Assembly: GCA_003280225.1 (NCBI GenBank)
Contig: QCFO01000005.1
Location: 1-64,000, forward strand
DNA from: Prochlorococcus sp. AG-363-K07
GTDB lineage: Bacteria > Cyanobacteriota > Cyanobacteriia > PCC-6307 > Cyanobiaceae
Reading direction: 5' to 3'
DNA: 64,000 nucleotides
The translations under genes were made by a program, and so were the position numbers. The notes below the pieces were generated by a model that was not told the DNA's origin, made no database searches, and saw only the letters and a list, made by a program, of their open reading frames with translations. This document shows, one piece after another, positions 1 to 17,343 of this stretch. The stretch's first letter is position 1. Each line of letters opens with the position of its first letter.

Positions 1-173
1 ATCCTATCTTTAAGCGAATTCCAATCAGAAAGCTTATAAAAGGTTACAGATACATTACATTCATAAAGCCAGTAATATCAAAGCATAAGCTCAGAAATTT
101 AGTGGATTTGATTCCTGATTTTTACAAGCTACGTAATTTCAAAAGGATCCTGACCTTCCTTTCTCTTTTATAA
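1..173 (+). CDS. C-terminal tail of an unidentified upstream gene
   Basis: One frame is open from the window edge to a TAA at 171-173, about 57 codons, and ends 13 bases before the next gene. The visible tail is rich in Lys, Arg, Ile and Phe. The spacing and direction fit the end of a gene in the same glycan operon. No domain can be recognised, so the product is unknown. The open frame could also be chance in AT-rich DNA. Confidence 0.4.
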   Translation, partial: PIFKRIPIRKLIKGYRYITFIKPVISKHKLRNLVDLIPDFYKLRNFKRILTFLSLL

Positions 174-186
174 TCCCAAATAAGAA

Positions 187-1350
187 ATGAAAAATTACAA
201 CCCTAGTCGCAATTCTATCTTTATTTTAGTCAATAGTCCTTTATATGTTCTTCAGCATTTGCAGCCGATAATAGAATCACTATGCTCAGCTGCTAATGTA
301 TATCTAATTTCTCCATTTGATAAGAACTATACCCTACCTATTTCAAAATACCAAATTATTAATATTCCCCTAACAAGACAGCCCTCGATACTCGATATTT
401 CTTCCTTAGTAAGTTTCCTGATATTAAGGGTCATTATTAGACCAAAGATTTCAATTTCTTTTACCCCAAAAGCTGGTCTTATTAATTGTCTAACTAGTTT
501 CAGTCCAGGAACAACAGTACATTATTTTACAGGCCAAAGATGGGCCACCTTCAAAGGTAAGAAGAGAACTTTTTATATGTTTATCGACAAACTTATTATT
601 CTTCTATCAAGAAAAGTATTTTGTGATAGTCCATCCCAATCAAGGCTGATTGCTTCAGAACTATCGGTTGTCCCGCCTCATTTCATAGGATCAGGTTCCC
701 TATCAGGTGTTGACCTAAAGCGATTCAAAATCAATAAGTCGTCTCCTATAACTGATCTAATACAAATCAGTGAATCCCTGCCCAAAAAGCTTATATCAGT
801 TTTGAGTAAAGAGAAATTATCTGATCTTTGTATTTTTGGATTTGTAGGCCGAGTAACAAAAGACAAAGGTATCTACGAACTTTTAGAGGCATTTAGACTA
901 CACTCTTCTTCCCATGATAATTCATATTTAGTTATCATAGGGCCAATCGAAGATGATGGTCTAAGTGCTAATAAAATATCAAGCCAAAAAAATGTATTTT
1001 ATATAAATTTCTCTAGCCAAATCGAAATATACCTTCCTTGTTTTTCAGCTTTAATTCTGCCAAGTTATCGAGAAGGGTTTGGATCAGTTATTTTAGAAGC
1101 AGCATCTTGTGCCAAACCATCAATTGTTTCTAACATTCCAGGTCCAGTTGATTTTGTGACAAACAATGTAAATGGTTTGGTAATTGAACCAAGGTCTGTA
1201 TCAGCATTAAAATCTGCTCTGGATTACATTAATGAGAACCCATCAACAGCAGAATCAATGGGATTATCTGCCAGAAAGTTAGTAGAAGAATCCTATTCTC
1301 AAGACTATGTCTGCGATGAGTTTGTAAAAACAATCATAAAATACTTGTAA
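187..1350 (+). CDS. Glycosyltransferase family 4
   Basis: A 387-residue protein with the two-Rossmann GT-B layout, likely transferring a sugar from a nucleotide sugar to a growing glycan on the cytoplasmic face of the membrane. The C-terminal half has the donor-site start GRVTKDKG (residues 221-228) and the retaining GT4 EX7E motif, Glu296 and Glu304, within REGFGSVILEA. The N-terminal half diverges, as acceptor domains do. It lies 13 bases after the tail of another gene in the same direction, at the head of an AT-rich polysaccharide island. Donor and acceptor sugars cannot be told from sequence. Confidence 0.85.
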   Translation: MKNYNPSRNSIFILVNSPLYVLQHLQPIIESLCSAANVYLISPFDKNYTLPISKYQIINIPLTRQPSILDISSLVSFLILRVIIRPKISISFTPKAGLINCLTSFSPGTTVHYFTGQRWATFKGKKRTFYMFIDKLIILLSRKVFCDSPSQSRLIASELSVVPPHFIGSGSLSGVDLKRFKINKSSPITDLIQISESLPKKLISVLSKEKLSDLCIFGFVGRVTKDKGIYELLEAFRLHSSSHDNSYLVIIGPIEDDGLSANKISSQKNVFYINFSSQIEIYLPCFSALILPSYREGFGSVILEAASCAKPSIVSNIPGPVDFVTNNVNGLVIEPRSVSALKSALDYINENPSTAESMGLSARKLVEESYSQDYVCDEFVKTIIKYL

Positions 1351-1442
1351 AGGGCATCTCTTTCAGCTTGACTTTAATGATTGCAATGCAACTTGAGCTT
1401 AATTCGCCAAGCGCAAAGCAGATGTCTGACAATGTCAGCAAA

Positions 1443-1472
1443 TTGTATTTACCCTTGAGGGTTAGTTATAAT
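1443..1472 (+). promoter_or_regulatory. Candidate sigma-70 promoter for the CapD-like gene
   Basis: TTGTAT at 1443-1448 and a consensus TATAAT at 1467-1472 are separated by 18 bases, about 57 bases upstream of the ATG at 1529. The element lies in the 178-base gap between two co-directional glycan genes. This would give the dehydratase gene its own promoter. The spacer contains a short inverted repeat (ACCC TTGA GGGT). Promoter activity is inferred. Confidence 0.4.
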
Positions 1473-1528
1473 ATGCAAGGTAGATCAACTATAAGTTCAC
1501 CTTTTGCATGCTTTTACCTCTTTGACTT

Positions 1529-3436
1529 ATGTCTTTAACCAGTAGAATCGTTAAGAGGCTTCTTTCATTAAACAGTCAGACAAGGACCATAATCCTTATT
1601 TTAGTCGATGCCACTCTAATATTAGTAGCGGTAAATTATCTTTTGTGGCAATTACAATTACCACAAGATACTATACACCAACATTTTTCTAGATATTGGA
1701 TATTAACTTTTGCGCTTATAGTTGGACTGCCGCTTTACTTATTAACGGGGCAGTACAAGAGCTTAACTCGGTACGTAACTAGCTCAATACTCTATAATTT
1801 AGCAGCTAGAAATTTTATATTAGTAATTCTTCTATTCTCCATTGCGGCAGTCTTTTCATATCAACCATTCCCTATCAGTGGCTGGGCAAACCTATTCTTA
1901 ATGCTCACTTTCTCTACTGCTTCTGTCAGACTTATTTTTCGTGACGTTCTTTTTAAACTACTTAAATTATCTCAAAATCAAAAACGAGTTGTTATCTATG
2001 GAGCTGGAGAGGCTGGAGCTCAATTAGCAGCATCACTAAGTAGAGAAAAAAATTATCGGATAGTTGCCTTTATAGATGATTCTCCTCAGTTACAAAATAG
2101 GTATATGAATGGGATAGCCATAGAATCACCTCTAAAACTTTACGCATTAAAAAATCAAATTGATCTCATCTTAATAGCAATTCCCTCATTAAGTAGAGAA
2201 CATATGAGGCGTCTGCTAGGTAATTTACAATCTTTAGGGGTTCCTGTTTTAAAAATACCTTCACTTGATGAACTTACTTCTGATTTAGGTTTAAATACCC
2301 TTAAACCTATATCAATTGATGATTTACTTGGAAGAGATGGAATTTTCTATGATCCCAAGATCCTTTCACCTTTTATCAACAATACTGTTGTATGTGTTAC
2401 TGGAGCAGGAGGCTCTATAGGTTCTGAACTTTGTAAGCAAATTATTCAATTGAATCCTTCTAAATTAATTTTAATAGACTCAAGTGAACCTAGCCTGTTT
2501 GCTATAGAACAAGAGTTAATCAATCAAATTAAAACCAAGTCAAAAGTAAGAGCTGTACTAGGAAATGCAACTGATGAGAAGGAGCTAATTAAGCTATTTA
2601 GCCATTATAAGGTTGAATTTGTTATTCACGCAGCAGCATACAAGCATGTACCGCTGGTTGAGGCAAACCCTCTCGTTGGTATCTCTAATAATGTCTTTTC
2701 TACGCTGGCAGTCTGTAATGCTGCAAAAAAGACCAATGTTAAAAAAGTGATCCTAATTTCAACAGATAAAGCTGTTAGGCCCACGAATGTAATGGGCGCC
2801 TCAAAAAGATTATCAGAAATTATTTTTCAAGCATTCTCTGAAGAGGAAGACATAGAATCAAGTCCTTCGAATAAGCTCAACAAAACCAAGATATCCTACT
2901 CAATGGTGAGGTTTGGAAATGTTCTTGGCTCTTCAGGATCTGTTGTTCCAACCTTTACAAAGCAAATAGCGTCTGGAGGCCCTATAACTCTGACTCACCC
3001 TGAGATAGTCAGGTATTTCATGACCATCTATGAAGCATCAGTTTTAGTATTACAAGCGGCAGTTCTTGCTGAAGGTGGTGAGGTTTTTCTTTTAGATATG
3101 GGAAAACCTGTTCCCATTCTGAATCTAGCAAAGCAAATGGTGCACTTAAGTGGACTGACTGTCAAAGATCATCAAAATCCGGATGGGGACATAGAAATTA
3201 TTTATACAGGGCTGAGACCTGGTGAGAAATTATTCGAAGAACTTCTAATAGACGCAAAATCTCTAAAAACACCACATCCTTTAATATATAGAGCTGTTGA
3301 AAGATCAGTACCAGCGTCTGAACTTTGGCCAAAGGTAAATGAATTAAAAGAAGCTGTAATTAACCAAGATAGCCATCAGGCTCTTTCTGTACTCTCGAAT
3401 TTAGTCCCTGAATGGAAAAGAAAAGATAATTACTAA
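1529..3436 (+). CDS. Membrane-bound UDP-sugar 4,6-dehydratase (PglF/WbpM/CapD family)
   Basis: A 635-residue protein with about four N-terminal membrane segments (residues 20-135) and two Rossmann regions. The first has YGAGEAGAQ at 158-166. The second, catalytic SDR domain has TGAGGSIG at 291-298. As is typical of the large membrane dehydratases, the SDR Tyr is replaced by Met: Met422-x3-Lys426 in NVMGASKR, next to STDKA. Known members convert UDP-GlcNAc to a 4-keto-6-deoxy sugar, the first step to bacillosamine- or QuiNAc-type residues. Here it probably supplies the first sugar of a surface polymer, fitting the phosphoglycosyl transferase gene that follows on the other strand. Confidence 0.88.
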   Translation: MSLTSRIVKRLLSLNSQTRTIILILVDATLILVAVNYLLWQLQLPQDTIHQHFSRYWILTFALIVGLPLYLLTGQYKSLTRYVTSSILYNLAARNFILVILLFSIAAVFSYQPFPISGWANLFLMLTFSTASVRLIFRDVLFKLLKLSQNQKRVVIYGAGEAGAQLAASLSREKNYRIVAFIDDSPQLQNRYMNGIAIESPLKLYALKNQIDLILIAIPSLSREHMRRLLGNLQSLGVPVLKIPSLDELTSDLGLNTLKPISIDDLLGRDGIFYDPKILSPFINNTVVCVTGAGGSIGSELCKQIIQLNPSKLILIDSSEPSLFAIEQELINQIKTKSKVRAVLGNATDEKELIKLFSHYKVEFVIHAAAYKHVPLVEANPLVGISNNVFSTLAVCNAAKKTNVKKVILISTDKAVRPTNVMGASKRLSEIIFQAFSEEEDIESSPSNKLNKTKISYSMVRFGNVLGSSGSVVPTFTKQIASGGPITLTHPEIVRYFMTIYEASVLVLQAAVLAEGGEVFLLDMGKPVPILNLAKQMVHLSGLTVKDHQNPDGDIEIIYTGLRPGEKLFEELLIDAKSLKTPHPLIYRAVERSVPASELWPKVNELKEAVINQDSHQALSVLSNLVPEWKRKDNY

Positions 3437-3459
3437 TAAATTCTCTTACATATTTCAAG

Positions 3460-4533
3460 TTATTTTATTTTACTTAGATTAGGTTTTCTGTAAAAAAAGC
3501 AAAATGTTAAAACGATTGTAGATATTATCATTATTGGAAGTTTGATTATGTTGAGCAGTAATAAAGCCAAAACACCAAACCACTGGGTAATAGCATAAAT
3601 CAAGACAACGGTCGATCGCTGTCCTCTTCCGCTAGTGAGTAATCGATGGTGTAAATGCCTTCTATCAGGATAAAATGGTGACTTCTTATCAAGAGTCCGC
3701 TTAAATATCACATAAGTCATGTCAAAGATAGGTACAAAAAGGATAAGCACTGCAATATGCAAGCTGAGAATATTCTCTGTGAAAATTGATGAAAGTAGAG
3801 TTAATGTTGATAAAATAAATCCAAAGAAATAAGAGCCACCATCACCCATAATTAACTTAGAAGGATAGAAGTTATACCTTAAAAATCCGATGGATGAACC
3901 GAACGTCGATACCATTAACAAACAAAGGGAATATTGATTAATCGACAAGGCGATAGGAATTAATATTAATAATGTAATTGCGACTATGCCTGCTGCTAAT
4001 CCATCAAGACCGTCCATCCAGTTTATTGCATTAATAACGCCTACAATCCAAATCAAGGTGAAAAATAGACTCAATATTTCAGGCAGAATGATTACGCCTA
4101 GCTGAGGATAAATAAACGAGAAATCAATAATATCAATTTTAATACCATTAAGCCAAGCAAAAAAAGCAAGTGCAGATTGAAAGATCAATCTGGACCAGGG
4201 AGATAAACTCAAGATATCGTCAGTTAAGCCAATAAAGAAAGCACAAGTTGCCCCAGCTGAAACGATCCAAAATTTGCTGCTTAACGGAACACTAAGTAGG
4301 CCTGATAGATCTAGAAACAGTCCCAATATTAATGATATTAGAAATCCCAGAAAAATAGCAGCCCCTCCAATACGAACAGTTGGTCGGGTATTTTGCCTGC
4401 GTTGACCTGGTTGATCTATTAATTGAAAATTAACTCCAAGAGTGTTAATACTTGGAATTAAAAGCATAGTTGCCAAAGCCGAAGACAGTAAAATTATAAG
4501 GATGGAAATAATTTCACTGGTTACTAGCATCAA
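3460..4533 (-). CDS. Undecaprenyl-phosphate sugar-1-phosphate transferase (WecA/TagO/MraY-like)
   Basis: A 357-residue polytopic membrane protein with roughly ten hydrophobic spans. It has the polyprenyl-phosphate transferase signatures: Asp105-Asp106 in GLTDDILSL, NWMDGLDG at 171-178, and a His cluster around RRHLHHR (291-297) in a cytosolic loop. The family moves a HexNAc-1-phosphate from UDP-sugar to undecaprenyl phosphate and so starts glycan assembly at the membrane. The loop resembles WecA/TagO more than MraY, and the glycan setting agrees. The first two codons are both Met, and the second is equally possible as the start. Confidence 0.85.
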   Translation of the reverse strand: MMLVTSEIISILIILLSSALATMLLIPSINTLGVNFQLIDQPGQRRQNTRPTVRIGGAAIFLGFLISLILGLFLDLSGLLSVPLSSKFWIVSAGATCAFFIGLTDDILSLSPWSRLIFQSALAFFAWLNGIKIDIIDFSFIYPQLGVIILPEILSLFFTLIWIVGVINAINWMDGLDGLAAGIVAITLLILIPIALSINQYSLCLLMVSTFGSSIGFLRYNFYPSKLIMGDGGSYFFGFILSTLTLLSSIFTENILSLHIAVLILFVPIFDMTYVIFKRTLDKKSPFYPDRRHLHHRLLTSGRGQRSTVVLIYAITQWFGVLALLLLNIIKLPIMIISTIVLTFCFFYRKPNLSKIK

Positions 4534-4760
4534 AGAAATGAGAGTCGAATAAACGAAGGAAGAGTGATTACAAGTTAGCTCTTAATTTGTCCTAACTTCT
4601 AATATATTCTACTACTTATTTTGTGAGATCTCAATATGGATATAGGATTAGGGACTATGCTTTAATCTTCGTTACATCAATTTCAGACCAGCGGAATATC
4701 AAGTAGTTTATTATTTAATAGGAATAGTCTTCTCAAACCATTTCAAATGAACCTCAGTAT

Positions 4761-5786
4761 ATGCCTTTGATACGAAACTCAAAAAGAAGCCTAACCTCAT
4801 TTGATATTTTATTAGTATCAATATTTGCACTATTTTATTGGATCTATAATGGTCTTTGGGATGGAAGTGGGTTTGGCACTGATCTGACAAGGTATTACAA
4901 TGTTTTTCTACTCATACCCGACAACCTAAATCTTGATGCAATTGGCACAGTACTGCAGTTGGATGACAAGGATGCATTTTCATTAATCCTGCAATATATA
5001 CCAAAGGTTTTTGGACTCTCATTTAATCTTCTTTTGCTTATTATTATCTTTTTATACTATAGATCTGGTATTCATAGAGTTAAAAAGTTAGCGAACAAAA
5101 GCTCCTCGGCCCTAAAATTATTTACAATAATTATATATAGCTTTCTGATGCTGTCCCTTGTCAATGTAGCTTTTCGACAGGGGATGTCCTTATTAGTTAT
5201 TTTAATCTATTTATTTGACCCTAGTAAGAACAGGACGAGAAGAGGGGATTTCTTTTCGGACATCTTTTATGCAATAATTGCGACGCTTATACACCTAGGA
5301 ACAATAATAGTTTTTCCCTTTATATTCCTGAGAGAATATATAGAAAAATACAGAAGGTACTTTGATTTTTTATTTTATATAATATTCATACTTTATATAA
5401 TTGGTGCTTTCAACTCTATAGGCTCGTACATACTTGGTGGTGCTGGTCAGTCATTTTTGGCCTTAATAAGAGCCATGTCGAATACAGACTCAGATTACGT
5501 AGTAGGTCCAACCCTGAGTAAAGCCTTGTCCATAATTGTTCCTGTTGTCGCACTAAGGCTTGGAACTAAAAGATATTCATCAACTCAACTTCGTAATATT
5601 AATCCAATCCTGATATATTACCAATATATTATGATGATAGGAATGGGTTTGAGTGGTTTTCCTTACCATGACAGAATCCTAATTATTGGATGGGTATTTC
5701 TTCCGTTATTACTTGCATTGCCTTTTCTCAACTTTATGGTTAATTTAACGAAAATCAATTCAGATCGATATAGGACAGCATCGTAG
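4761..5786 (+). CDS. EpsG/Wzy-like polysaccharide polymerase
   Basis: A 341-residue, very hydrophobic protein with about nine predicted spans. Near the N terminus GFGTDLTRYYNVF resembles the Asp...Tyr-Tyr segment of EpsG-family proteins, which are thought to polymerise repeat units at the outer face of the membrane. The position among sugar-priming and transfer genes supports a polymerase role. Similarity is at family-architecture level only, so a flippase-like or other membrane glycan function is possible. The gene is divergent from the WecA/TagO-like gene across a 227-base gap that probably holds both promoters. Confidence 0.6.
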   Translation: MPLIRNSKRSLTSFDILLVSIFALFYWIYNGLWDGSGFGTDLTRYYNVFLLIPDNLNLDAIGTVLQLDDKDAFSLILQYIPKVFGLSFNLLLLIIIFLYYRSGIHRVKKLANKSSSALKLFTIIIYSFLMLSLVNVAFRQGMSLLVILIYLFDPSKNRTRRGDFFSDIFYAIIATLIHLGTIIVFPFIFLREYIEKYRRYFDFLFYIIFILYIIGAFNSIGSYILGGAGQSFLALIRAMSNTDSDYVVGPTLSKALSIIVPVVALRLGTKRYSSTQLRNINPILIYYQYIMMIGMGLSGFPYHDRILIIGWVFLPLLLALPFLNFMVNLTKINSDRYRTAS

Positions 5787-5857
5787 ATGCCAAAAAATGA
5801 TGATGACTGTTGTTTTTAGGATAAAGATATATAAGCTTGCACAGGTGGGAATATTCT

Positions 5858-7081
5858 CTAAATAGACTTATACCTGGAGATAAAACTTTCTAAGGCTTTC
5901 GAGATTCCAAAGCAGGCTAGCGGTATTAAAGGAAGAAAATATCGAAGAAGTGGATTGAATAGAATGGGAATAATGATAATAGAGATTGGCAATAAGCTAA
6001 GGTCTGGTCGAATAGAGTATGTGGATTTAACCCAAAAAAACAAGCCCAAGATATGTAAAATCGCAAAAAACAATAATGGCAATAGAACTTTTAATATGAA
6101 TTCAGATTGATATGATGATTGGGAAAAATCCTCAAGCATGCTAGCAGTACCAGGTGTTAAATTTGTAATAGAAATATCACCGATATTTACTTGCCAGGAT
6201 GCGCTAAAAAGGCGTTCTCTTGCTCCAGCAACAAAGAACAAGGAGAGTAAAAGATAGGCTGAATAACTCACAATAATAGTAAGTAAATTAATTAATAGCG
6301 AGTCTGAACTACTTAAAGAGCTAAATCCTTCATATAAGTTCTTAGGCCTAAATGAGTAGGGACCACCCCACATATATCTGGGTATGATTACTAGATAATC
6401 ATGAATCAAAGTGTAGAGTCCAGATATGATTAGTGAGGCAGTTAAAAGGATAATAAATATTCTTATAAGATAATTACGTCTAGATGGAATGTTGTTTTTA
6501 TTGATATATAGCCTAATAAACTCATATAGTTCAATACCAAATAATGGTAAATTCTGTGCTCTAAAACATACGAGTATTAACTGCAGAAAAAGATTCCTAA
6601 GTCTTGAAAGAAGTGACTTCGCATAATTATATGGGTTTAATTTCTGCCTAGTCACGAAAAAGACTGCTACAGCCAATAGAGAGAAATTCTCTGTGCAAAA
6701 TTTCAAGCTATATGTAGCTAACATTGGATGAATAGCAAGCAAAACCAATGAAAAATAATTGAGCTTGAAATACCTATTGCAAACAAAAAAAAGTGTTATG
6801 CAGGATAGTCCCGAAATCAACTGCGCTAGAAGTAATTTGAACAATGGACCTAGCAAAGGAAGGCCATGAATTAATTGGAGGGTAATTGAGAATAAAGGAT
6901 TAAAATTAAAGCCATTTAGGTACTTTAATTTATCTGGAATAGAGGTCACATCTACATATCTTTCTCTGAAGGGGTCTAAAGTTAAATGGGCGCTATCAAA
7001 ATTAGAAAACAACAATGCACAAACAGCAAGGCGAGGCAACCAAAACCAAAGAATAATATCCCTTTTAAGAAAAGAAAGCAT
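5858..7081 (-). CDS. Polytopic membrane protein, possible GT-C glycosyltransferase
   Basis: A 407-residue protein with about nine or ten hydrophobic segments and a large hydrophilic loop near residues 245-330. Asp and Glu residues in the first loop (FDSAHLTLDPFRERY, residues 28-42) are placed where GT-C transferases carry catalytic acids. GT-C enzymes use polyprenyl-phosphate sugars at the outer face of the membrane, and a donor-making operon (GT2 plus DUF2304) lies just upstream in divergent orientation. This role is inferred from topology and context. No specific family is recognised with confidence. Confidence 0.55.
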   Translation of the reverse strand: MLSFLKRDIILWFWLPRLAVCALLFSNFDSAHLTLDPFRERYVDVTSIPDKLKYLNGFNFNPLFSITLQLIHGLPLLGPLFKLLLAQLISGLSCITLFFVCNRYFKLNYFSLVLLAIHPMLATYSLKFCTENFSLLAVAVFFVTRQKLNPYNYAKSLLSRLRNLFLQLILVCFRAQNLPLFGIELYEFIRLYINKNNIPSRRNYLIRIFIILLTASLIISGLYTLIHDYLVIIPRYMWGGPYSFRPKNLYEGFSSLSSSDSLLINLLTIIVSYSAYLLLSLFFVAGARERLFSASWQVNIGDISITNLTPGTASMLEDFSQSSYQSEFILKVLLPLLFFAILHILGLFFWVKSTYSIRPDLSLLPISIIIIPILFNPLLRYFLPLIPLACFGISKALESFISRYKSI

Positions 7082-7255
7082 ATAGAAGTCCTATTTATTC
7101 ATTGGAGCACTATATACGAGAAACAGTCAATATCATTATCAATTAGTCAAAATACTAGTAAATCTACCTACCAAAAGTCGGTAGACTATTGACCGGGGAA
7201 TGCTATAGTAGAAAATATTTAAATTTAATCATTCCTGTTATCCGCAAGAGAATAA

Positions 7256-7948
7256 ATGACAATGAGTTGTGTAAATGAGAAGGCATTAATAATTATTGCG
7301 GCCTACAATGAATCGTCGAATATTGAAAGTACCTTACAGGAGGTGAAAGATTATTTTTCGAATATAATTGTAATTAATGATGGAAGTGATGACAACACCC
7401 TAGAATTGCTTAATAAGCTAAGAGTAGATACTATTTCACACTGCATAAATATAGGTCAAGGTGGTTCTTTAGGAACAGGCTTGGCATTTTTTCTAAAACA
7501 TACAAACCTTGAATATGCAATTACTTTCGATGCTGACGGACAGCATCGACCAAATCAAGCCATGGAAATGCTAAATTTCGCCAATAAAAATAATTTATAT
7601 GCTGTGCTTGGCTCAAGATTCCTAAACAAGGAATATCTCAAATCAATACCATTTACTAAAAGACAAACCCTAAGAGCTGCGTCTATTTATGAAAAGATTT
7701 TCTACTCGATTAACCTTTCTGATGCTCATAATGGTCTTAGGGTTTTACATAGAAAACTGGTAAAAGAACACTTGGTCCCAATAAGGAATTTTGATATGAA
7801 TCATGCTACAGAAATTTCGAAGAAGATAGTTGATTCTACCTTGCCCTTTGAGGAATTCCCAGTAGATATTATTTACCAGAATAAAGATTCTCAGAGTACA
7901 ATAAATGCTGTCAATATCACAATAGCCTCCCTGCTGAAACACAGATGA
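7256..7948 (+). CDS. Family 2 glycosyltransferase, polyprenyl-phosphate sugar synthase type
   Basis: A 230-residue single-domain GT-A enzyme. The AAYNES start of the nucleotide-binding fold is at 15-20, NDGSDDNT at 41-48, and the metal-binding DAD at 92-94 in FDADGQHRP. The layout matches DPM1/GtrB-like enzymes that load a sugar from a nucleotide donor onto a polyprenyl phosphate. It lacks C-terminal membrane spans of its own. The next gene, a small DUF2304 membrane protein, overlaps it by 4 bases and probably anchors or assists it. It opens a four-gene operon ending with an SDR-like and a flavin enzyme. Confidence 0.85.
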   Translation: MTMSCVNEKALIIIAAYNESSNIESTLQEVKDYFSNIIVINDGSDDNTLELLNKLRVDTISHCINIGQGGSLGTGLAFFLKHTNLEYAITFDADGQHRPNQAMEMLNFANKNNLYAVLGSRFLNKEYLKSIPFTKRQTLRAASIYEKIFYSINLSDAHNGLRVLHRKLVKEHLVPIRNFDMNHATEISKKIVDSTLPFEEFPVDIIYQNKDSQSTINAVNITIASLLKHR

Positions 7949-8301
7949 GTATTTATGCGAAGTTTGTATTTTTTGCTGTGGTTGTCTTAAGTTACAGCCT
8001 CTCATATGTTTTTGCAAAAACAAACAGTATAAAAGCACTTGAGAAATTACTGATCATATTTTATGCAACTCTGCTCCTCCTTTCCGTATTGTTTCCTGAA
8101 GCTACTGTTGTCTCGGTCTCGCAGTTGCTTGGGGTAAGTCGATATACAGATTCATTATTATTTCTATTTATTGTTTTATCACTATCAATAAATTTCGTCT
8201 TAACCAGAAAAGTAGTTGAGATGGATCAGAGGATAAAATCATTGGTCCAGCATATTTCACTGACTAGAGTAACTGAACGCAATGGTTTAACTCCTAAATA
8301 A
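7945..8301 (+). CDS. DUF2304 small membrane protein
   Basis: A 118-residue protein with three hydrophobic segments and a charged C-terminal helix (MDQRIKSLVQHISL) typical of DUF2304, a family usually found directly after family 2 glycosyltransferases. Its ATG overlaps the stop of the transferase gene (ATGA), so the two are translationally coupled. The biochemical role of DUF2304 is not established. From context it is likely a membrane partner of the lipid-linked sugar synthase. The next gene begins 18 bases downstream. Confidence 0.75.
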   Translation: MSIYAKFVFFAVVVLSYSLSYVFAKTNSIKALEKLLIIFYATLLLLSVLFPEATVVSVSQLLGVSRYTDSLLFLFIVLSLSINFVLTRKVVEMDQRIKSLVQHISLTRVTERNGLTPK

Positions 8302-8319
8302 ATTTAATGTTTACGCCCT

Positions 8320-9147
8320 ATGACTAAGCATCGAAAATATATACTCCTTGGTAAAAATAGCAAGATCTCCAAGTATTTGTATAAAGAAATAGTCTCCAGG
8401 CAACTTGAAGTTCATCAGCTTAGCTGGTATCTAATTAAGAAATATGGGATTGTCTCCTGTTTATTAAAGACTCTAAATATATCTTTTTTGAAGAGTAATC
8501 ATGCAGTTGGTTTAGAACTCATTATCATAGATTGTCTAATAGGAGGTAGTGATATTAAATACGAGTTGGAACTCCATACAAATTTACTTTTTGAGTCCAA
8601 AAAACTATCTTTGGATTCAAAATTTATCTACCTTTCAACTTTTGAACCGTCTAAATCAGCTGGTACCGATTATAGGGAGATGAAATTAATCCTAGAAGGA
8701 CATATGGTCAAAAATAATGCTGTCATCATAAGAATGGGCCAACCTATTGATCCCATCATAGATAGCTACTTTGACAAACTTAATAAGTGGCAAAGAGGTT
8801 ATCTACTAACAGATCTGCGTCTGAGGCCAATAAAAATACCAGGAACATATATCAGTGAAATAGTTGATATAATTTCGAATCAGAGAGATTTTAAGTCACT
8901 TTATAAATGTTATTCAGATATTTTATATCTAGTACTAGATATAAAATATAATCCAAAAGTCTTGTTTTCATTAAAAGCTGATAATAGGTTGATAGTTCCA
9001 ATACCACTGTTTCTTATCTCTTATTTCACTAAATATTTATCATTCTTACTAAAAATAATTAACTGCCCCAGCAAAACAACAGACTTCTTTCAGAAGTTCT
9101 ACTCAATTTATGAACATCAAAACATCTTAAATAGAACATTTAAGTAA
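8320..9147 (+). CDS. Atypical short-chain dehydrogenase/epimerase-like protein
   Basis: A 275-residue protein without a strong family match by eye. A hydrophobic strand followed by a glycine (YILLGKNSKIS, residues 7-17) resembles a degenerate Rossmann start. Tyr118-x3-Lys122 (YREMK), preceded by Ser106-Thr107 after the strand KFIYLS, matches the SDR catalytic Ser...YxxxK layout. The classical GxxGxxG is not conserved, so cofactor binding is uncertain. It lies between the DUF2304 gene and a GMC flavoprotein gene that starts 11 bases downstream. A role as the reductase of a two-step sugar modification is inferred. Confidence 0.55.
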   Translation: MTKHRKYILLGKNSKISKYLYKEIVSRQLEVHQLSWYLIKKYGIVSCLLKTLNISFLKSNHAVGLELIIIDCLIGGSDIKYELELHTNLLFESKKLSLDSKFIYLSTFEPSKSAGTDYREMKLILEGHMVKNNAVIIRMGQPIDPIIDSYFDKLNKWQRGYLLTDLRLRPIKIPGTYISEIVDIISNQRDFKSLYKCYSDILYLVLDIKYNPKVLFSLKADNRLIVPIPLFLISYFTKYLSFLLKIINCPSKTTDFFQKFYSIYEHQNILNRTFK

Positions 9148-9158
9148 TTATTTTAATC

Positions 9159-10679
9159 ATGACTTCCTCTAATACGATGAATAATTTAGTCTATGATTGT
9201 GTTGTTGTCGGGACAGGAATAAGTGCCGAACCAGTGTTACACCACTTATCAAAAACAAATTTAAAAGTCTTAGTGATTGATGGCAGTGAAATCAAGAATG
9301 ATTATTGTGAACGAAAAGAATCAAACAAAGAAATTACGCGTCTAACGCCCAAGCAAATTTTCAAATCCTTAAATATTTATAACAATACTATTCCTATTAA
9401 ATCAACCCGGTATTCACAAATTAGTTGCTCTAAATTTACTTATATTTATACCTCTGTATCAGGAGGTTTGAGTAACTTTTGGGGTGGAGGACTGCATGAA
9501 TGGCCAGATGATGAGTTAACAAAGACAACAACACTACCTCTTGATAAAGTAAAAGAATCTTACAAAGACTTAAAAAATAGATTGATTTGTAAATCAAGAG
9601 ATCATTTTTTCAATTCTTCTCCATTCGCAATGCCTTATATCAATGACAAGAAAGTATCGACTAGATTCATTACTAAAGTAACAGAATTCTTTTTTAATCC
9701 GCATGGTTTGTCAACTCATCCAAACAGGAGACTACCATTTGACCAGCATCTAATTTGGAATTCCAAAAGTACTATTTTGAATTACATAAATACTAGCAAA
9801 AACCTAATTTATAAATCGAATATAACTGTAGAATCAATTAGAAATACGTCCAATGAGAATACGCTTTACTGTACGACACCTCAAGGAGATGTCCAAATTC
9901 ATAGTAAAAATATCTTTTTATGTTGTGGAACTATAAACTCAACATTGCTCGCATTTAGTGCTTTACAGAAACCGCATGCAAACCTTGAACTTAGGCATAC
10001 AAATGCAGCCATTTGCCCTGTTTTATCTTTGAAGAAATCCCAATTATATTCTAATAATAATATTGACTTACCAGATATATCTTGGTCGTACTATCCAAGT
10101 AAAAATCAAGAGCCTTCTGCTGCTGGTTATTTAATAGCCTCTAATTTTTTATTAAAAAGATTCAAAAGTCGTTTTTACAGAATCCTTTCTCCAAAAATCA
10201 CTGTTCTTTTTACTCAGTTTTTCTCTAGTTTAACATTCCTCACGATTTATAAAAAAGACACTAATTCAAATACTCATCTAAAAATCACGAGAAAATCATC
10301 TCATAATGAGTCCCATAGTGATTTTTTATTAGAGATATCTAGCAAACCTAAAATACAAAAAATCATGGCCAGTATGCTTCTTGATATGTTATCCCTAGGT
10401 AAATGGATTAAAAATAGATCAATCCTTCTTATCCCATTAGCAAGGCTAGTGAGAATTGGGGCTGATGTACATTACACCTCAACCATGCCAGATTCAAGCC
10501 TAAAATATAGTGAAATATCAACAAATTCGTATGGAGAAATCCAAAATCTCGTCAACATATATGCTTGTGATCCATCAAGGTTAGCTTATCTTTCATGCCT
10601 ACCACATAGCTTTACATCAATGGCAATTATAAATGCCTCAATGCCTCACATTATTGATAAAATTCAAAAAAATCTTTAA
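9159..10679 (+). CDS. GMC-type FAD-dependent oxidoreductase
   Basis: A 506-residue flavoprotein. The N-terminal dinucleotide fold begins YDCVVVGTGISAEP (residues 12-25) and ends with an acidic residue at VLVIDG. SGGLSNFWGGGL near residues 103-114 is the GMC-type flavin segment. The C-terminal region has His438 in VHYTSTMP and His483 in LPHSFTSM, matching the His-His/Asn catalytic pair of GMC enzymes that oxidise an alcohol to a carbonyl. Placement after a polyprenyl-sugar synthase, DUF2304 and SDR-like gene suggests the substrate is a sugar or lipid-linked sugar hydroxyl. The substrate is unknown. Confidence 0.75.
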   Translation: MTSSNTMNNLVYDCVVVGTGISAEPVLHHLSKTNLKVLVIDGSEIKNDYCERKESNKEITRLTPKQIFKSLNIYNNTIPIKSTRYSQISCSKFTYIYTSVSGGLSNFWGGGLHEWPDDELTKTTTLPLDKVKESYKDLKNRLICKSRDHFFNSSPFAMPYINDKKVSTRFITKVTEFFFNPHGLSTHPNRRLPFDQHLIWNSKSTILNYINTSKNLIYKSNITVESIRNTSNENTLYCTTPQGDVQIHSKNIFLCCGTINSTLLAFSALQKPHANLELRHTNAAICPVLSLKKSQLYSNNNIDLPDISWSYYPSKNQEPSAAGYLIASNFLLKRFKSRFYRILSPKITVLFTQFFSSLTFLTIYKKDTNSNTHLKITRKSSHNESHSDFLLEISSKPKIQKIMASMLLDMLSLGKWIKNRSILLIPLARLVRIGADVHYTSTMPDSSLKYSEISTNSYGEIQNLVNIYACDPSRLAYLSCLPHSFTSMAIINASMPHIIDKIQKNL

Positions 10680-10849
10680 AAATTTTATCCAATTGAGTGT
10701 ATATAATCTAACTGCCTATTGTGACAAGATTATATAATCAAACTAGAACATAGAAATATCTGTCCTGGAATGTATTCCAAGAAGATCAAACCAGTCGAGA
10801 TATAAATATTGAATTGATAATTATCTTTTTCTCTTTACGAATGCATTAA

Positions 10850-11944
10850 TCAAGGTGTATTCCAAACGAATCTAGAAGAGGCCGCGTAGTTCCATACGAA
10901 GGCTAGTAAAATACCAGCCATTTGAGCCCAAAAAGCACTCTGAACTATAGTGTTGTAGAAGGCAGTAGCTATTCCTACATTTGCAATCACAGGTAATGAA
11001 CTAACTAGTAAATACTTAAATACTCCCTTTAAAAGAAAAAATCCTTTTAATTTATTGGACCGAAATGTAAGGAGATTATTAATTAAATAATTAGAAATTG
11101 CGGCAATTACAGCTGAAATTGCTATTGACCTTTCGAAGCCTAACTGTGCAATCTCCATAAAGAACTTTGTAAACATTAGCTGAACAAAACAGCCAGTGGC
11201 CCCTACAATTCCAAAACTTATTGCTCTTCTTGGAACAACCCTAAATGACATTGTATGTAAAATGGATATAACAAAATCCCATAGTATAGAAAAGTCCAAC
11301 TTGGACTCCCCATAAAATCTTGGCTGAAATGCAAGAGGAACTTCCGAAACAATAAGCCTACCTTGACTTACAGCAAGAAGCTCATAGAAGAATTTAAACC
11401 CATTAACATTTACTTTTCTAATTGATTCGTAGCAATTGTTGAAGTTAAGAACAAAACAACCACTCATGTAATCAGTAAGGTGTGAATATTTACTAGGCAA
11501 ACTAAATCTAGAAATCTTATTAGCAATAGATGAGCTCTTTGTCCTTCTTCTGCTTAGTCCAGAAATTGTTGCATCCCCAATAAACCTACTTCCTACTACA
11601 ATATCGGATTTTTGATCAATTAAGAAGCGACATGCATTTATTACATCTGATAATTTATGCTGACCATCTGCGTCCATAACAGCAACTATATCCCCATTTG
11701 CAGCCAATAAACCTTCCTTGATTGCACTTGCAAGTCCAGATCTACCAAGCCTACTGATAAGTCTTATTCGATGATCTTTCTTGGAAATCTCTTTCACAAG
11801 TTCAGGAGTCCCATCGGTCGAATCATCATCAACTACCAATACCTCAACTTCAAAAAAATCTTCTATTGCAAGCAAATCTCTCAGCAAAGGAGAGATGTTC
11901 TCTCTCTCATTAAAAGTAGGAAGAACTACAGAAAGGTGTGTCAT
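10850..11944 (-). CDS. GT2 glycosyltransferase fused to a GtrA membrane domain
   Basis: A 364-residue two-domain protein. Residues 1-225 form a family 2 GT-A fold with VVLPTFNERENI, VVDDDSTDGT (38-47) and the metal-binding DAD in MDADGQHK (91-93). Residues 235-360 form a four-span GtrA domain. The fusion is common in enzymes that make polyprenyl-phosphate hexoses and may also help flip them across the membrane. It resembles dolichol-phosphate mannose synthase plus flippase function in one chain. It is the last gene of the glycan island and points back into it. Sugar identity is not readable. Confidence 0.85.
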   Translation of the reverse strand: MTHLSVVLPTFNERENISPLLRDLLAIEDFFEVEVLVVDDDSTDGTPELVKEISKKDHRIRLISRLGRSGLASAIKEGLLAANGDIVAVMDADGQHKLSDVINACRFLIDQKSDIVVGSRFIGDATISGLSRRRTKSSSIANKISRFSLPSKYSHLTDYMSGCFVLNFNNCYESIRKVNVNGFKFFYELLAVSQGRLIVSEVPLAFQPRFYGESKLDFSILWDFVISILHTMSFRVVPRRAISFGIVGATGCFVQLMFTKFFMEIAQLGFERSIAISAVIAAISNYLINNLLTFRSNKLKGFFLLKGVFKYLLVSSLPVIANVGIATAFYNTIVQSAFWAQMAGILLAFVWNYAASSRFVWNTP

Positions 11945-12298
11945 ATGGATTGCAGAGAAATTATTTTTCTTTAGATTTAGAACCTAAAGCAAGGCAGGCT
12001 AAATGAACAAAGCAAGAGTGACTAGCAAGTAATAAGGCTTTCGATTGATAATCACAGCATTCTAAATCGCAGACTTGAATCGTGGCCATGAGAATTGTGA
12101 TAAGAACCCTTAATCATTACTAATCACCTTACTAAATCCATCAAAGCTCTAAAACTCAAGTAATTGCAACCGTTTCCAATGGAAAACCAGCAGCTAAAAT
12201 CTGATAAAACCCGCCATCAAGTAATTATACCTGTAAAGCTTTCGTAAAGTCACTGAAAGATGCTAGACCAGAAGTATATAGAGGAGGAGATGAAAATT
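11945..12298. other. Gap between glycan island and housekeeping genes
   Basis: About 350 bases separate the divergent GT2-GtrA gene and the small gene at 12299. AT-rich sequence with stop codons in all frames and no RNA gene. A TTATAC-like -10 (near 12225-12231) could serve the small gene. Nothing marks an integration site, although this is the boundary of the accessory island. Confidence 0.5.
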
Positions 12299-13251: not shown

Positions 13252-14208
13252 CTACAGTCCTCCTAGCAAAGCAGCCAAGAGAGCCTGTTGGACATGCAAG
13301 CGATTTTCAGCTTGATCAAAGATCCGACTGGCTTCGTCATCCATAACTTCTGCACTAATTTCCTCACCACGATGGGCAGGTAAGCAATGCAGGACAATTG
13401 CATTGGGATCAGCTTCTGAAAGTATTGCCTTATCCAAACAAAAACTCTTGAAGGATTTTTTCCTAATTGCACTTTCATCTTCCTGCCCCATAGATGCCCA
13501 AACATCTGTATAAAGAATATTTGCCCCTTTTACAGCATCTACTGGATTATTTGTTAATTCAATAGTGGAACCTTCTACTAAAAGTTGTTTTGCTAAATTC
13601 AATATATTTGAAGATGGTTCGAACCCAGCGGGACACCCAATTCGGACATTAACTCCCAAAAGTGCTCCACAAATCATCAAGGAATGAGAAACATTGTTCC
13701 CATCACCTATATACGCAAGTGTTTTCCCTTGAAGATAACCAAACTCTTCCTTTATAGTGAAGAAATCTGCTAAAGCCTGGCAAGGATGTTCTAAATCTGT
13801 AAGGGCATTTATGACTGGTATTGAAGACCAATTTGCATAATCCAACAACTCTTTTTGAGCATATGTTCGGACTGCCAATACATCACAAAACCGGCTCAAA
13901 ACTCTTGCAGTGTCTTCGATTGGCTCTCCCCTCCCTAGCTGGGTAACAGTTGGGTTGAGATCAACAGTTTGGCCACCTAGACGTGCCATCGCAACCTGAA
14001 AACTCACTCTTGTTCGCGTTGAGGCCTTAGTAAAAATCAAACCCAAAACACGATTCCCAAGATCGATTCTGCGATCACCTTTTTTTAACTGAGTAGCCAA
14101 ATCAAACAAAGCATTGATTTGATTTGCAGTTACATCAGCTGATGAAAGGAAGTCCCCGCCTTTGAGTGCTGAAAGCTCGGCAGCGACACCATGGGATTTT
14201 GAAGCCAT
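13252..14208 (-). CDS. argF: Ornithine carbamoyltransferase
   Basis: A 318-residue enzyme that joins carbamoyl phosphate and ornithine to give citrulline in arginine synthesis. It carries the carbamoyl phosphate loop STRT (63-66), HPCQ (141-144) and the ornithine-binding HCLP (274-277), all in the expected order, with normal family length. It lies between ftsH upstream and lexA downstream on the minus strand, 45 bases after ftsH. The argD gene for the same pathway lies about 39 kb away. Confidence 0.95.
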   Translation of the reverse strand: MASKSHGVAAELSALKGGDFLSSADVTANQINALFDLATQLKKGDRRIDLGNRVLGLIFTKASTRTRVSFQVAMARLGGQTVDLNPTVTQLGRGEPIEDTARVLSRFCDVLAVRTYAQKELLDYANWSSIPVINALTDLEHPCQALADFFTIKEEFGYLQGKTLAYIGDGNNVSHSLMICGALLGVNVRIGCPAGFEPSSNILNLAKQLLVEGSTIELTNNPVDAVKGANILYTDVWASMGQEDESAIRKKSFKSFCLDKAILSEADPNAIVLHCLPAHRGEEISAEVMDDEASRIFDQAENRLHVQQALLAALLGGL

Positions 14209-14253
14209 GGAAGAAGCTTTAAAGGATTGTTATTTGGAAACAATAGTGTTTAG

Positions 14254-16140
14254 TCAAGTCTCTGCGATTGCAACTAGCTCTTTAGGCAAGGAACTCTGGT
14301 CAAGCATCTTCTTCAACTCATCCCCTTCAATCACTTCTTTCTCTAGAATCTGCTGTGAGATATTCTCAAGAAGAGAAAGGTTATGCCTCAGAATTTTCAA
14401 GGCATTTTCATGAGCAAAGTCGACCAATCCTCTAACTTCCTTATCAATTGCCTGTGCAGTGGCATCACTTACAACCCGTCTAGGATTGTTATTCCCTCCT
14501 AAAAATTGTCCTCCACCTTGCTTGTCATAAGCGAGAGGGCCAAGAATCTCACTCATCCCATAAGTTCCAACCATCTGCTCTGCTAGATCAGTTGCTCGTT
14601 GCAAGTCATTAGAAGCACCAGTCGTTATTTTGCCAAACACTATTTCTTCTGCAGAACGTCCGCCTAACAAAGTCGCTATCTGACCTTGTAAGTCTTCTTT
14701 GGAGTTCAAAAACCTTTCCTCGGTTGGAAGCTGCAATGTATATCCCAAAGCGCTCATACCTCTTGGAACTATTGAAATCTTGGCAACTTTGCTTCCTCCG
14801 GGCATCAAGTGACCGACAATTGCATGGCCAACCTCGTGATAAGCAACTACTCTTTTCTCATCTTCTTGCAACACACGACTCTTTTTTTCAAGTCCTGCAA
14901 CTACTCTTTCAATAGCTTCATTAAGATCTTTTTGCTCTACTTTATTGCGTTTGCTTCTAGCAGCTAACAGTGCAGCCTCATTAACCATATTGGCTAAGTC
15001 TGCACCAGCAAATCCACTGGTAGCTTGAGCAATTCGATCTAGATCAACCCCAGAAGCTAATTTAACCTTTTTTGTATAAATCTCAAGAATTGTCTTGCGA
15101 CCAGAGAGGTCTGGCCTGTCTACCAAAACTTGCCTATCAAATCGTCCTGGACGCAAAAGAGCTGCATCCAAAACCTCTGGTTGGTTAGTAGCTGCGAGAA
15201 CAATTACAGGCTTATCAGTGGAAGCAAAGCCATCCATCTCTGTAAGCAATTGATTCAATGTTTGCTCTCTTTCATCGTTACCTCCTACTACCCCCATTGA
15301 GCCTGACCTACTTTTCCCTATTGCATCGAGCTCATCAATAAAAATAATGCAAGGAGCTTTCTTTTTAGCTTGTTCAAACAGATCTCTTACACGTGCAGCT
15401 CCTGCACCCACGAAAAGTTCAACAAACTCGGAACCTGAAATGATGAAAAAAGGAACCTCTGCTTCACCCGCCACTGCTTTTGAAAGAAGAGTTTTTCCAG
15501 TTCCTGGAGGCCCTACTAAGAGGACTCCCTTAGGAATTCGAGCACCAATTTCTGTATAACGTTCGGGTGTTTTTAAAAAATCAACAATCTCTGTCAGTTC
15601 ATCTTTTGCTTCATCAACCCCAGCAACATCTTCAAAAGTCACTCTCGATTCTTCATCTGGCACATAAACCTTTGCCTTGCTTTTAGTAAAGCTCAAAGCG
15701 CCTTGAGCGCCTCCTCCACCCATACTCCTGCGCGCAAAAAACTGAAGAACAAGGATGAAAATCAAAGGCGGGACAACCCAACTTAAAACTGTGGTGAAAA
15801 TATTTGGTTTCTTAGGTGGTGCAGCTGCGAATTCAACACCCTTGCTCTCTAATCGCTGAGGCAAGTCCATATCAAATATTGGCGTAGTAGCCAAAACTGA
15901 TGGGGCTCCCTCCTGAGGAGAAGAGAGCTCATATCGAATTTGGTCTTGGGTGATATATGCCCTCTTAACCTCTCCATCATTGACTTGGTTAATAAAAAGG
16001 GAATAGGGCACCCTAGGGACCTGAAGACTTGGGTTAGGCAAAAAGCTGCTTATCAGCAGCAAGGCGCCAAATCCAATCAACACAAAATTAATTATTCCGA
16101 AACGTCGATTCGGCTGATTGTCATCTTGACGAATCGCCAT
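14254..16140 (-). CDS. ftsH: ATP-dependent zinc metalloprotease FtsH
   Basis: A 628-residue membrane AAA protease. It has two N-terminal membrane spans (about 17-34 and 115-135) around a lumenal or periplasmic segment, then the AAA domain with Walker A GPPGTGKT (210-217), Walker [12 protein letters not shown] (265-275) and a second region of homology at RPGRFDR. The zinc-binding HEVGH (435-439) marks the protease domain. Cyanobacteria have several FtsH paralogues. This one resembles the thylakoid type that degrades damaged photosystem II D1, but the exact paralogue cannot be assigned here. Family-typical length. Confidence 0.95.
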
Positions 16141-16233
16141 AGTTCAAAAAACAATTACTTCAATCCAAATTAAGCGGCAGTGACATAAAGCGTTTAATTC
16201 ATCTGGCGTAAGAACCGAACGAAACCCCAGAAA

Positions 16234-17343
16234 TCAAGCTTTTGTTATTGGGAAAGGTATTTTTAAAAGCCAATCTTCACCTAGCCTGAACATCTGCGTA
16301 TCTTTCAATACCAACACCTGTTCCATTGAGGTAAACCCTAAATCAGATAAAGGTGTCATTTGAGGAAAACCTCCAAGCAATTTTGGAGCAATAACTATCG
16401 CCAATTCCTGAACGCAACCCTGCTGAATCGCAGAACTAGCCAAAACTGGTCCACACTCCCAAAGAGCTGAATTCACCCCTTTTTTTGCTAATGCTTTAAA
16501 TAAGTCAATAGGATTAGTAGATGTAAGTGCTAGCCGATCCAGTGATTTAGGCAAATGGTTAAATTTTTCTTGATCCGCTTCAGGACCATACGCAATAAGT
16601 GTTTTCGCTTTTGATGTATCCCAAAGTTGCGCATCTATGGGCAAGTCCAGGCTCCTTGTTAGAACCACTCTGAGAGGCTCTGGATCTTTCAATCCGCGAC
16701 TAGTCAGTAAAGGGTCATCAGCTCGAACAGTCCCACTACCAACAATTACCGCATCACAATTTGCTCGAAGCCCATGAACCCAAGCTCTAGAGGGAGGAGA
16801 ACTAATCCATTGACTTAATCCATTACTTAATCCTGTTCTTCCATCCAAGCTCATTGCCCACTTAAGGACACCCCAAGGTCTTCCCTGCAGAACGCGAAAA
16901 ACATAAGCCCTATTGAGGAAAGTAGCCTCCTGCTCTAGAAAGCCAGTGATTACTTCCAATCCTGCATTTCTTAGTTCAAATATCCCATCACCAGAAACCC
17001 TTGGGTCTGGGTCTTTCATCGCAATAACAACTCTTGCTAAACCTGCGTTCAGAATCGCTTTTGTACAGGGTGGTGTTCGGCCTTGGTGACAGCAAGGTTC
17101 CAACGTGACTACAAGAGTTCCTCCTTTTGCCTTAGAACCGGCCTGAGCCAAAGCAACAACTTCAGCGTGAGGCATGCCTGCCATGAGATGAAAGCCTTCC
17201 CCAACTAATCGACCAGCTTCATTTAAAACAACAGCTCCAACTAGAGGATTAGGGCTTGTATAGCCCTCTGCTAATGCAGCAAGTTGTAATGCCCTTCGCA
17301 TCCAAGGGGTCCAAATTACCGAAGGCGAATCAATACTTTTCAT
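16234..17343 (-). CDS. ribD: Bifunctional riboflavin biosynthesis deaminase/reductase RibD
   Basis: A 369-residue enzyme for two steps of riboflavin synthesis. The N-terminal zinc deaminase has HAE (59-61) and PCCHQGRTPPC (83-93) with the zinc cysteines. The C-terminal part (from about residue 155) is the NADPH-dependent reductase for the pyrimidine ribose side chain. Its first 14 bases overlap the end of the DUF3122 gene, so the two are co-transcribed. The flavin theme continues with ribF in another part of the window. Confidence 0.93.
   Translation of the reverse strand: MKSIDSPSVIWTPWMRRALQLAALAEGYTSPNPLVGAVVLNEAGRLVGEGFHLMAGMPHAEVVALAQAGSKAKGGTLVVTLEPCCHQGRTPPCTKAILNAGLARVVIAMKDPDPRVSGDGIFELRNAGLEVITGFLEQEATFLNRAYVFRVLQGRPWGVLKWAMSLDGRTGLSNGLSQWISSPPSRAWVHGLRANCDAVIVGSGTVRADDPLLTSRGLKDPEPLRVVLTRSLDLPIDAQLWDTSKAKTLIAYGPEADQEKFNHLPKSLDRLALTSTNPIDLFKALAKKGVNSALWECGPVLASSAIQQGCVQELAIVIAPKLLGGFPQMTPLSDLGFTSMEQVLVLKDTQMFRLGEDWLLKIPFPITKA

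Follow-up and report, generated by a model that had tools for sequence, protein, structure and literature searches.

A divergent GMC flavoprotein next to an SDR-like gene in Prochlorococcus: a possible module for redox remodelling of a lipid-linked sugar

Essentially two cases of redox epimerisation acting on lipid-linked sugars have, to our knowledge, been described: DprE1/DprE2, which is a validated drug target in tuberculosis, and one system based on a short-chain dehydrogenase/reductase (SDR). DprE1 and DprE2 constitute the established two-enzyme route, in which a polyprenyl-phosphate sugar is oxidised and then reduced (PMC9993113). In the three-component pentofuranose system of Citrobacter, the SDR ORF13 is predicted to perform redox epimerisation of an undecaprenyl-phosphate sugar, and the authors of that 2024 study were aware of no other epimerases in side-chain glycosylation systems of O-polysaccharides (PMC11127046). 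Concerning the synthesis of lipid-linked sugars, the polyprenyl-phospho-GalNAc synthase PpgS (Rv3631) of M. tuberculosis has a small membrane protein, Rv3632, as its helper (PMC6487176, PMC3485146). Here we describe four genes of the forward strand (positions 7256-10679) in a 64,000-nucleotide stretch of DNA, hereafter the window, from a draft genome (1.74 Mb) of Prochlorococcus sp. AG-363-K07. They encode, in this order, a family 2 glycosyltransferase (GT2), a DUF2304 protein, an SDR-like protein and a GMC-like flavoprotein. A preliminary description of the locus had proposed that the last two form a redox epimerase acting on a lipid-linked sugar, with a flavin fold unrelated to that of DprE1. 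Our analysis partly supports this idea, which in outline is well founded: a sugar, probably linked to a lipid, would be remodelled by redox chemistry.

A divergent GMC flavoprotein and its relatives

According to its structural model, the protein encoded at 9159-10679 has the GMC fold and, as judged by profile comparison, it belongs, as a very divergent member, to a large family of GMC proteins spread over many phyla. No Pfam family matched it, or the SDR-like protein, above the cut-off, and the Pfam GMC scores of two of its relatives (L055 and L114) were also sub-threshold. The protein reached 138 bits against a profile of the GMC family built without it, and it carries an N-terminal Rossmann FAD motif (VGTGIS) together with the signature GGLSNFWGG. 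The AlphaFold model had a predicted local distance difference test score (pLDDT) of 78 and a predicted template modelling score (pTM) of 0.84. All 50 PDB matches listed for this model by Foldseek were sugar-oxidising GMC enzymes (E-values down to 1.5e-17), among them fructose dehydrogenase, pyranose 2-oxidase, C-glycoside oxidases and FAD-glucose dehydrogenase. The earlier assignment as a GMC-type flavoprotein is thus borne out by both the profile and the model.

Single-sequence searches with the GMC and SDR-like proteins gave only FAD-motif or chance matches in 99 relatives and, for the GMC protein, in 400 family genomes; with either protein nothing was found in viral contigs and plasmids, nor with the GMC protein in genome contigs and phages. 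The ordinary GMC genes of the window's taxonomic family, retrieved with PF05199, were rejected as relatives because they belong to other subfamilies and are not similar to the window protein. Other weak matches to the two proteins were discarded as FAD-motif or chance similarity. The GMC family itself was found by scanning bacterial genome contigs for the motif GGLSN[FVL]WG[GA], and the locus counts below are matches listed from this motif-selected scan. It yielded at least 117 stretches, 91 with a GMC gene of one family and 26 without, the latter being used as control loci. Members occurred in Proteobacteria, Verrucomicrobia, Acidobacteria, Elusimicrobia, Bdellovibrionota, Spirochaetes, Melainabacteria and others. 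The family is rare in photosynthetic cyanobacteria, as a strict profile search of 194 genomes of the phylum returned only the window's genome and two genomes of one other family; when the search was loosened, the 251 genomes of the family to which the window belongs yielded six further members, all divergent.

The preliminary description had singled out two histidines of the flavoprotein. His438 was invariant in the family alignment (45 of 45 rows), and its position aligns with the C-terminal histidine motif (HxxGT-type) of glucose dehydrogenase. The column of His483 holds a histidine in only one other row, Pro482/His483 of the window protein standing against mostly Thr-Ile in the family, so the pair of histidines is not a family feature. 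Also, a CxxCxxCxxxC motif was present in 32 of the 45 rows (including L055, L084, L109 and L155). By profile alignment, this region falls on a cysteine-containing segment of FAD-glucose dehydrogenase, with CPIGAMYN at its end, where that enzyme holds an Fe-S cluster. The ferredoxin-type motif suggests, for most relatives, an Fe-S cluster and electron transfer to the membrane. It is missing from the window protein, from two SDR-linked relatives of the same taxonomic family, from the Pelagibacter members and from the L114 group. In a quick tree the branch of the window protein was very long, at 3.5 changes per column, and its placement, near members devoid of this motif, was uncertain.

Partners of the GMC gene in the window and elsewhere

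Partner genes were counted in the 67 GMC loci whose flanks both exceeded 500 bases, with the 26 motif-matching loci lacking a GMC gene as control; loci were counted without correction for relatedness, and the control loci are few. An SDR of one family adjoins the GMC gene in 46 of the 67 loci, over many phyla, and in 0 of the 26 control loci. This SDR gene is nearly always on the same strand and directly downstream of the GMC gene, many pairs having overlapping stop and start codons. A DegT aminotransferase gene takes the adjoining place in 9 loci, and neither partner is found in 12. Clustering of the neighbours retrieved the SDR in 45 loci (directly downstream in 41), a GT2 in 43 of 102 and DegT in 15. 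GT2 genes were found in 42 of 91 GMC loci versus 4 of 26 controls (p=0.006, relatedness again uncorrected). Representative GT2 neighbours best match AglJ, dolichyl-phosphate hexose transferase, PpgS, PgfS or ArnC, all of them synthases of lipid-phosphate sugars. Two other genomes of the family of the window have the GMC gene near an SDR-like gene that is similarly degenerate: G034 shows the window's order, SDR-like then GMC, beside GtrA and an AglJ-like GT2, and G227 holds GMC, GT2 and SDR-like genes together. The association of a GMC gene with a reductase-like gene is apparently widespread and undescribed; in the open-access literature we found no described GMC/polyprenyl, GMC/GtrA, GMC/DprE or GMC/O-antigen system.

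Two further arrangements were observed. A different divergent GMC branch adjoins or lies near DegT-like genes in four loci of the window's taxonomic family (L187, L188, L189 and L190, from G038, G157, G191 and G046); with their GT2 genes and, mostly, GtrA nearby, these are candidate modules for a lipid-linked amino sugar. A glycan cluster of G030 contains two other GMC genes, and immediately before each of them is a gene that by eye resembles an aldo/keto reductase (L042:5052-6050 with 5999-7612, and 13852-16421); this is another GMC-reductase pairing.

The products of the first two genes of the locus most likely make a polyprenyl-phosphate sugar. The GT2 matches PF00535 (8e-21), with DAD at residues 92-94, and its best NCBIfam match by far is PpgS (NF058614; 1.6e-43), although the score of 148.7 bits does not reach the equivalog threshold of 370; its neighbour matches PF10066 (2.4e-13). 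DUF2304 genes are rare, as only 2 of the 251 genomes of the window's family have one, both times after a GT2 of the same type, and a relative of the window GT2 in G216 also adjoins a DUF2304 gene. The window pair thus presents the features of the PpgS type, that is, a GT2 domain with a DxD motif and a small membrane partner. It is on the best match to PpgS, the pairing with DUF2304 and the precedent of PpgS/Rv3632 that the assignment is based.

The third gene (8320-9147) encodes a protein to which we attribute an SDR-type Rossmann fold with low confidence. Its AlphaFold model has an overall pLDDT of 63, with values mostly between 66 and 87 in the N-terminal Rossmann core, while modelling is poor in the middle of the protein and over parts of its C-terminal half. 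The best PDB matches in Foldseek were RmlD, UDP-rhamnose synthase and UDP-GlcNAc 4-epimerase (probability 1.0, TM about 0.4); most matches were extended SDRs, and a few were flavodoxin-like hydrolases. The YxxxK motif is kept, Y118 lying in a nearly invariant column and K122 in an invariant one. As far as its low confidence allows, the model agrees with the earlier expectation of a Rossmann enzyme.

The positions of the genes are given in Table 1. All the features reported in the preliminary description are present, including the four genes, Tyr118-x3-Lys122 and the intervals of 18 bases (DUF2304 to SDR-like) and 11 bases (SDR-like to GMC); the GT2 and DUF2304 genes overlap by 4 bases (ATGA). 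As genes of the opposite strand bound the set on both sides, it looks like a single four-gene transcription unit. Promoter and terminator scans of the sequence gave no signal above that of shuffled sequence. The locus is part of a low-GC surface-polysaccharide region (positions 1-12000), which also holds the EpsG/Wzy-like gene and the GT2-GtrA fusion: GC content is 32-36% across the first 12 kb, 38-44% in later 2-kb blocks and about 41% further right. Close to the end of this region are genes that by eye are LexA-like, ornithine carbamoyltransferase-like and FtsH-like. The polytopic protein on the left had no relative among the loci fetched for comparison.

Table 1. Genes of the locus and its surroundings (positions in the window).
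Feature	Position	Strand	Length	Evidence
Putative EpsG/Wzy-like polysaccharide polymerase	4761..5786	+		PF14897 1.5e-09
Polytopic membrane protein, GT-C-like by eye only	5858..7081	-		Without Pfam or NCBIfam family
GT2 glycosyltransferase, probable PpgS-like polyprenyl-phosphate-sugar synthase	7256..7948	+	230 aa	PF00535, NF058614
DUF2304 protein, putative small membrane partner of GT2 (Rv3632-like role)	7945..8301	+	118 aa	PF10066
Degenerate extended-SDR-like protein	8320..9147	+	275 aa	Weak profile match, AlphaFold, Foldseek
Divergent GMC flavoprotein	9159..10679	+	506 aa	Family profile, AlphaFold, Foldseek
GT2-GtrA fusion, candidate second polyprenyl-phosphate-sugar synthase/flippase beside the operon	10850..11944	-		PF00535 2.4e-30, PF04138 2e-17

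Proposed function and alternatives

We tentatively propose, as a reading to which we give nearly even chances, that the operon serves a surface glycan by producing a lipid-linked sugar and remodelling it through GMC oxidation followed by SDR reduction. The GT2 with its DUF2304 helper would move a sugar from a nucleotide sugar onto polyprenyl phosphate. The GMC flavoprotein would then convert one hydroxyl of the lipid-linked sugar into a ketone. Probable sites are C2 and C3, the positions oxidised by several of the nearest solved GMC relatives. The SDR-like partner would reduce the keto-sugar from the other face, or hold it for reduction, giving the epimer. The product could finally be flipped and then transferred by membrane enzymes encoded nearby. 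That the GMC substrate is a sugar, and a lipid-linked one, is supported but not proven; the lipid linkage is drawn from the association with lipid-phosphate-sugar synthase and GtrA genes and from the analogy with DprE1/DprE2. We infer the oxidised position, the epimerisation, the electron acceptor and the activity of the degenerate SDR.

Several observations weigh against this proposal. The SDR-like protein gave only a weak colinear match to the profile of the SDR partners (14.4 bits, E 0.004 in 4928 open reading frames), and its glycine motif, GKNSKIS (GxxSxxS), retains the first glycine of GxxGxxG alone, the other two being lost. The preliminary description had expected the four genes to co-occur in other genomes. 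This was the case for GMC and SDR, often with a GT2, all three being together in two genomes of the same family; the exact set including DUF2304 was not found beyond the window, nor was DUF2304 found with the GMC-SDR pair elsewhere. Polytopic (GT-C-like) membrane neighbours were only marginally enriched (p=0.058). Also, a DegT-type aminotransferase takes the place of the SDR in four of the six GMC loci from the same family, with a GT2 also present and a GtrA-like gene nearby in three; with the nine DegT loci of the wider set, this indicates that epimerisation is not the sole use of the family. Of the redox epimerase first proposed, the GMC fold and the recurrent GMC-SDR pairing, often with a GT2, were recovered; the DegT partners leave epimerisation in doubt, and the altered glycine motif does so for NAD(P) binding by the window's SDR.

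Most economically, the data can be read as redox editing of a sugar in two steps, in which the GMC enzyme would make a ketone that is then reduced by the SDR to an epimer or, at other loci, aminated by DegT. It is conceivable, although we would rather doubt it, that the GMC family serves generally to make keto-sugars from polyprenyl-phosphate sugars, most members possibly passing electrons to the membrane through their cysteine motif (CxxCxxCxxxCP). The partner would be exchangeable, SDR leading to an epimer and DegT to an amino sugar, and the cyanobacterial member in the window would be a highly divergent one whose SDR is reduced.

Other genes found beside several relatives also weigh against the proposal, as they fit a scheme in which the sugar is soluble or nucleotide-linked when it is remodelled (a heptose-type precursor, for instance) and the GT2 uses the finished sugar for lipid loading. 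In Melainabacteria-type genomes and in Pelagibacter, the gene immediately upstream of GMC is transaldolase-like (L198:5936-6676, L199:4843-5580, L059:2780-3475, L132:1857-2552). In the Melainabacteria-type loci, SIS-type sugar isomerase and HAD-type phosphatase genes are also beside the pair, one genome having GHMP-kinase-like and nucleotidyltransferase-like genes further upstream, and a SIS-type isomerase gene occurs in L191 as well. We nevertheless consider this explanation unlikely, since transaldolase is a neighbour in only 5 of 102 loci, far fewer than GT2, and the GT2s tested resemble lipid-phosphate-sugar synthases. Moreover, a flavoenzyme would not be needed, as nucleotide-sugar epimerases normally oxidise and reduce within one SDR.

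The loss of the glycine motif could also mean that, in this branch, the SDR-like protein is a non-catalytic structural partner, the keto- or otherwise oxidised sugar being an end product or the substrate of an unlinked enzyme. SDR folds can indeed be scaffolds, as in the complex-I 39 kDa subunit, one of the best profile matches, and the SDR-like proteins of L191 and L192 are shorter and deviate from the glycine motif too. This appears improbable to us, as the YxxxK pair is kept in the window protein despite the divergence of the rest and most SDR partners outside this branch have the full glycine motif. Finally, a chance or decaying assembly of two divergent reading frames without joint function here, in a variable surface-polysaccharide island, would fit the low GC content, the very long GMC branch and the lack of near relatives in the window's family, but it is very improbable given that all four reading frames are intact, that the invariant GMC residues and YxxxK are retained, that gene order and tight spacing are as in L192, and that the same pairing recurs over many phyla.

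If two-step remodelling of a lipid-linked sugar is correct, it would represent a second, unrelated flavin solution present over many phyla, and bacteria would commonly edit sugars on the carrier lipid, which would help explain the rare epimers and amino sugars of surface glycans. The loci described here provide concrete gene pairs to assay.

Comparison with described systems

The window flavoprotein shares with sugar-oxidising GMC enzymes the predicted fold, the FAD motif and a catalytic-type histidine, and most of its family also has the cysteine motif in the Fe-S region of glucose dehydrogenase. It differs by an identity of 10-13% in the structure matches, by the family's own signature GGLSN[VF]WG, by the lack of the cysteine motif in the window member and by a second catalytic residue that is not conserved. 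The upstream pair resembles PpgS/Rv3632 in that a GT2 is followed by a small membrane protein in both, whereas the described pair is without GMC or SDR and the window GT2 reaches 149 bits against the cut-off of 370. With the ORF13 system, which also includes a GT-C enzyme and a flippase, the common point would be a predicted redox epimerisation of a lipid-linked sugar for glycan decoration; that system relies on a single SDR with no flavoenzyme, and its pentofuranose derives from phosphoribosyl pyrophosphate (PRPP).

The flavin fold of DprE1 is of the vanillyl-alcohol oxidase type and not GMC, in contrast to the fold modelled for the window protein, which by this comparison falls outside the DprE1 family. 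The lipid-linked sugar of the window would also come through the GT2 from a nucleotide sugar and not from PRPP, and the window pair is known from genes and models. The likeness to DprE1/DprE2 would thus be one of function only: a flavoprotein oxidase and an SDR-type reductase, proposed here to act in sequence on a polyprenyl-phosphate sugar, whose genes adjoin each other near those for lipid-sugar synthesis. Adjacency of flavoprotein and SDR genes is seen in the window, where the SDR is degenerate, and in 46 of the 67 family loci.

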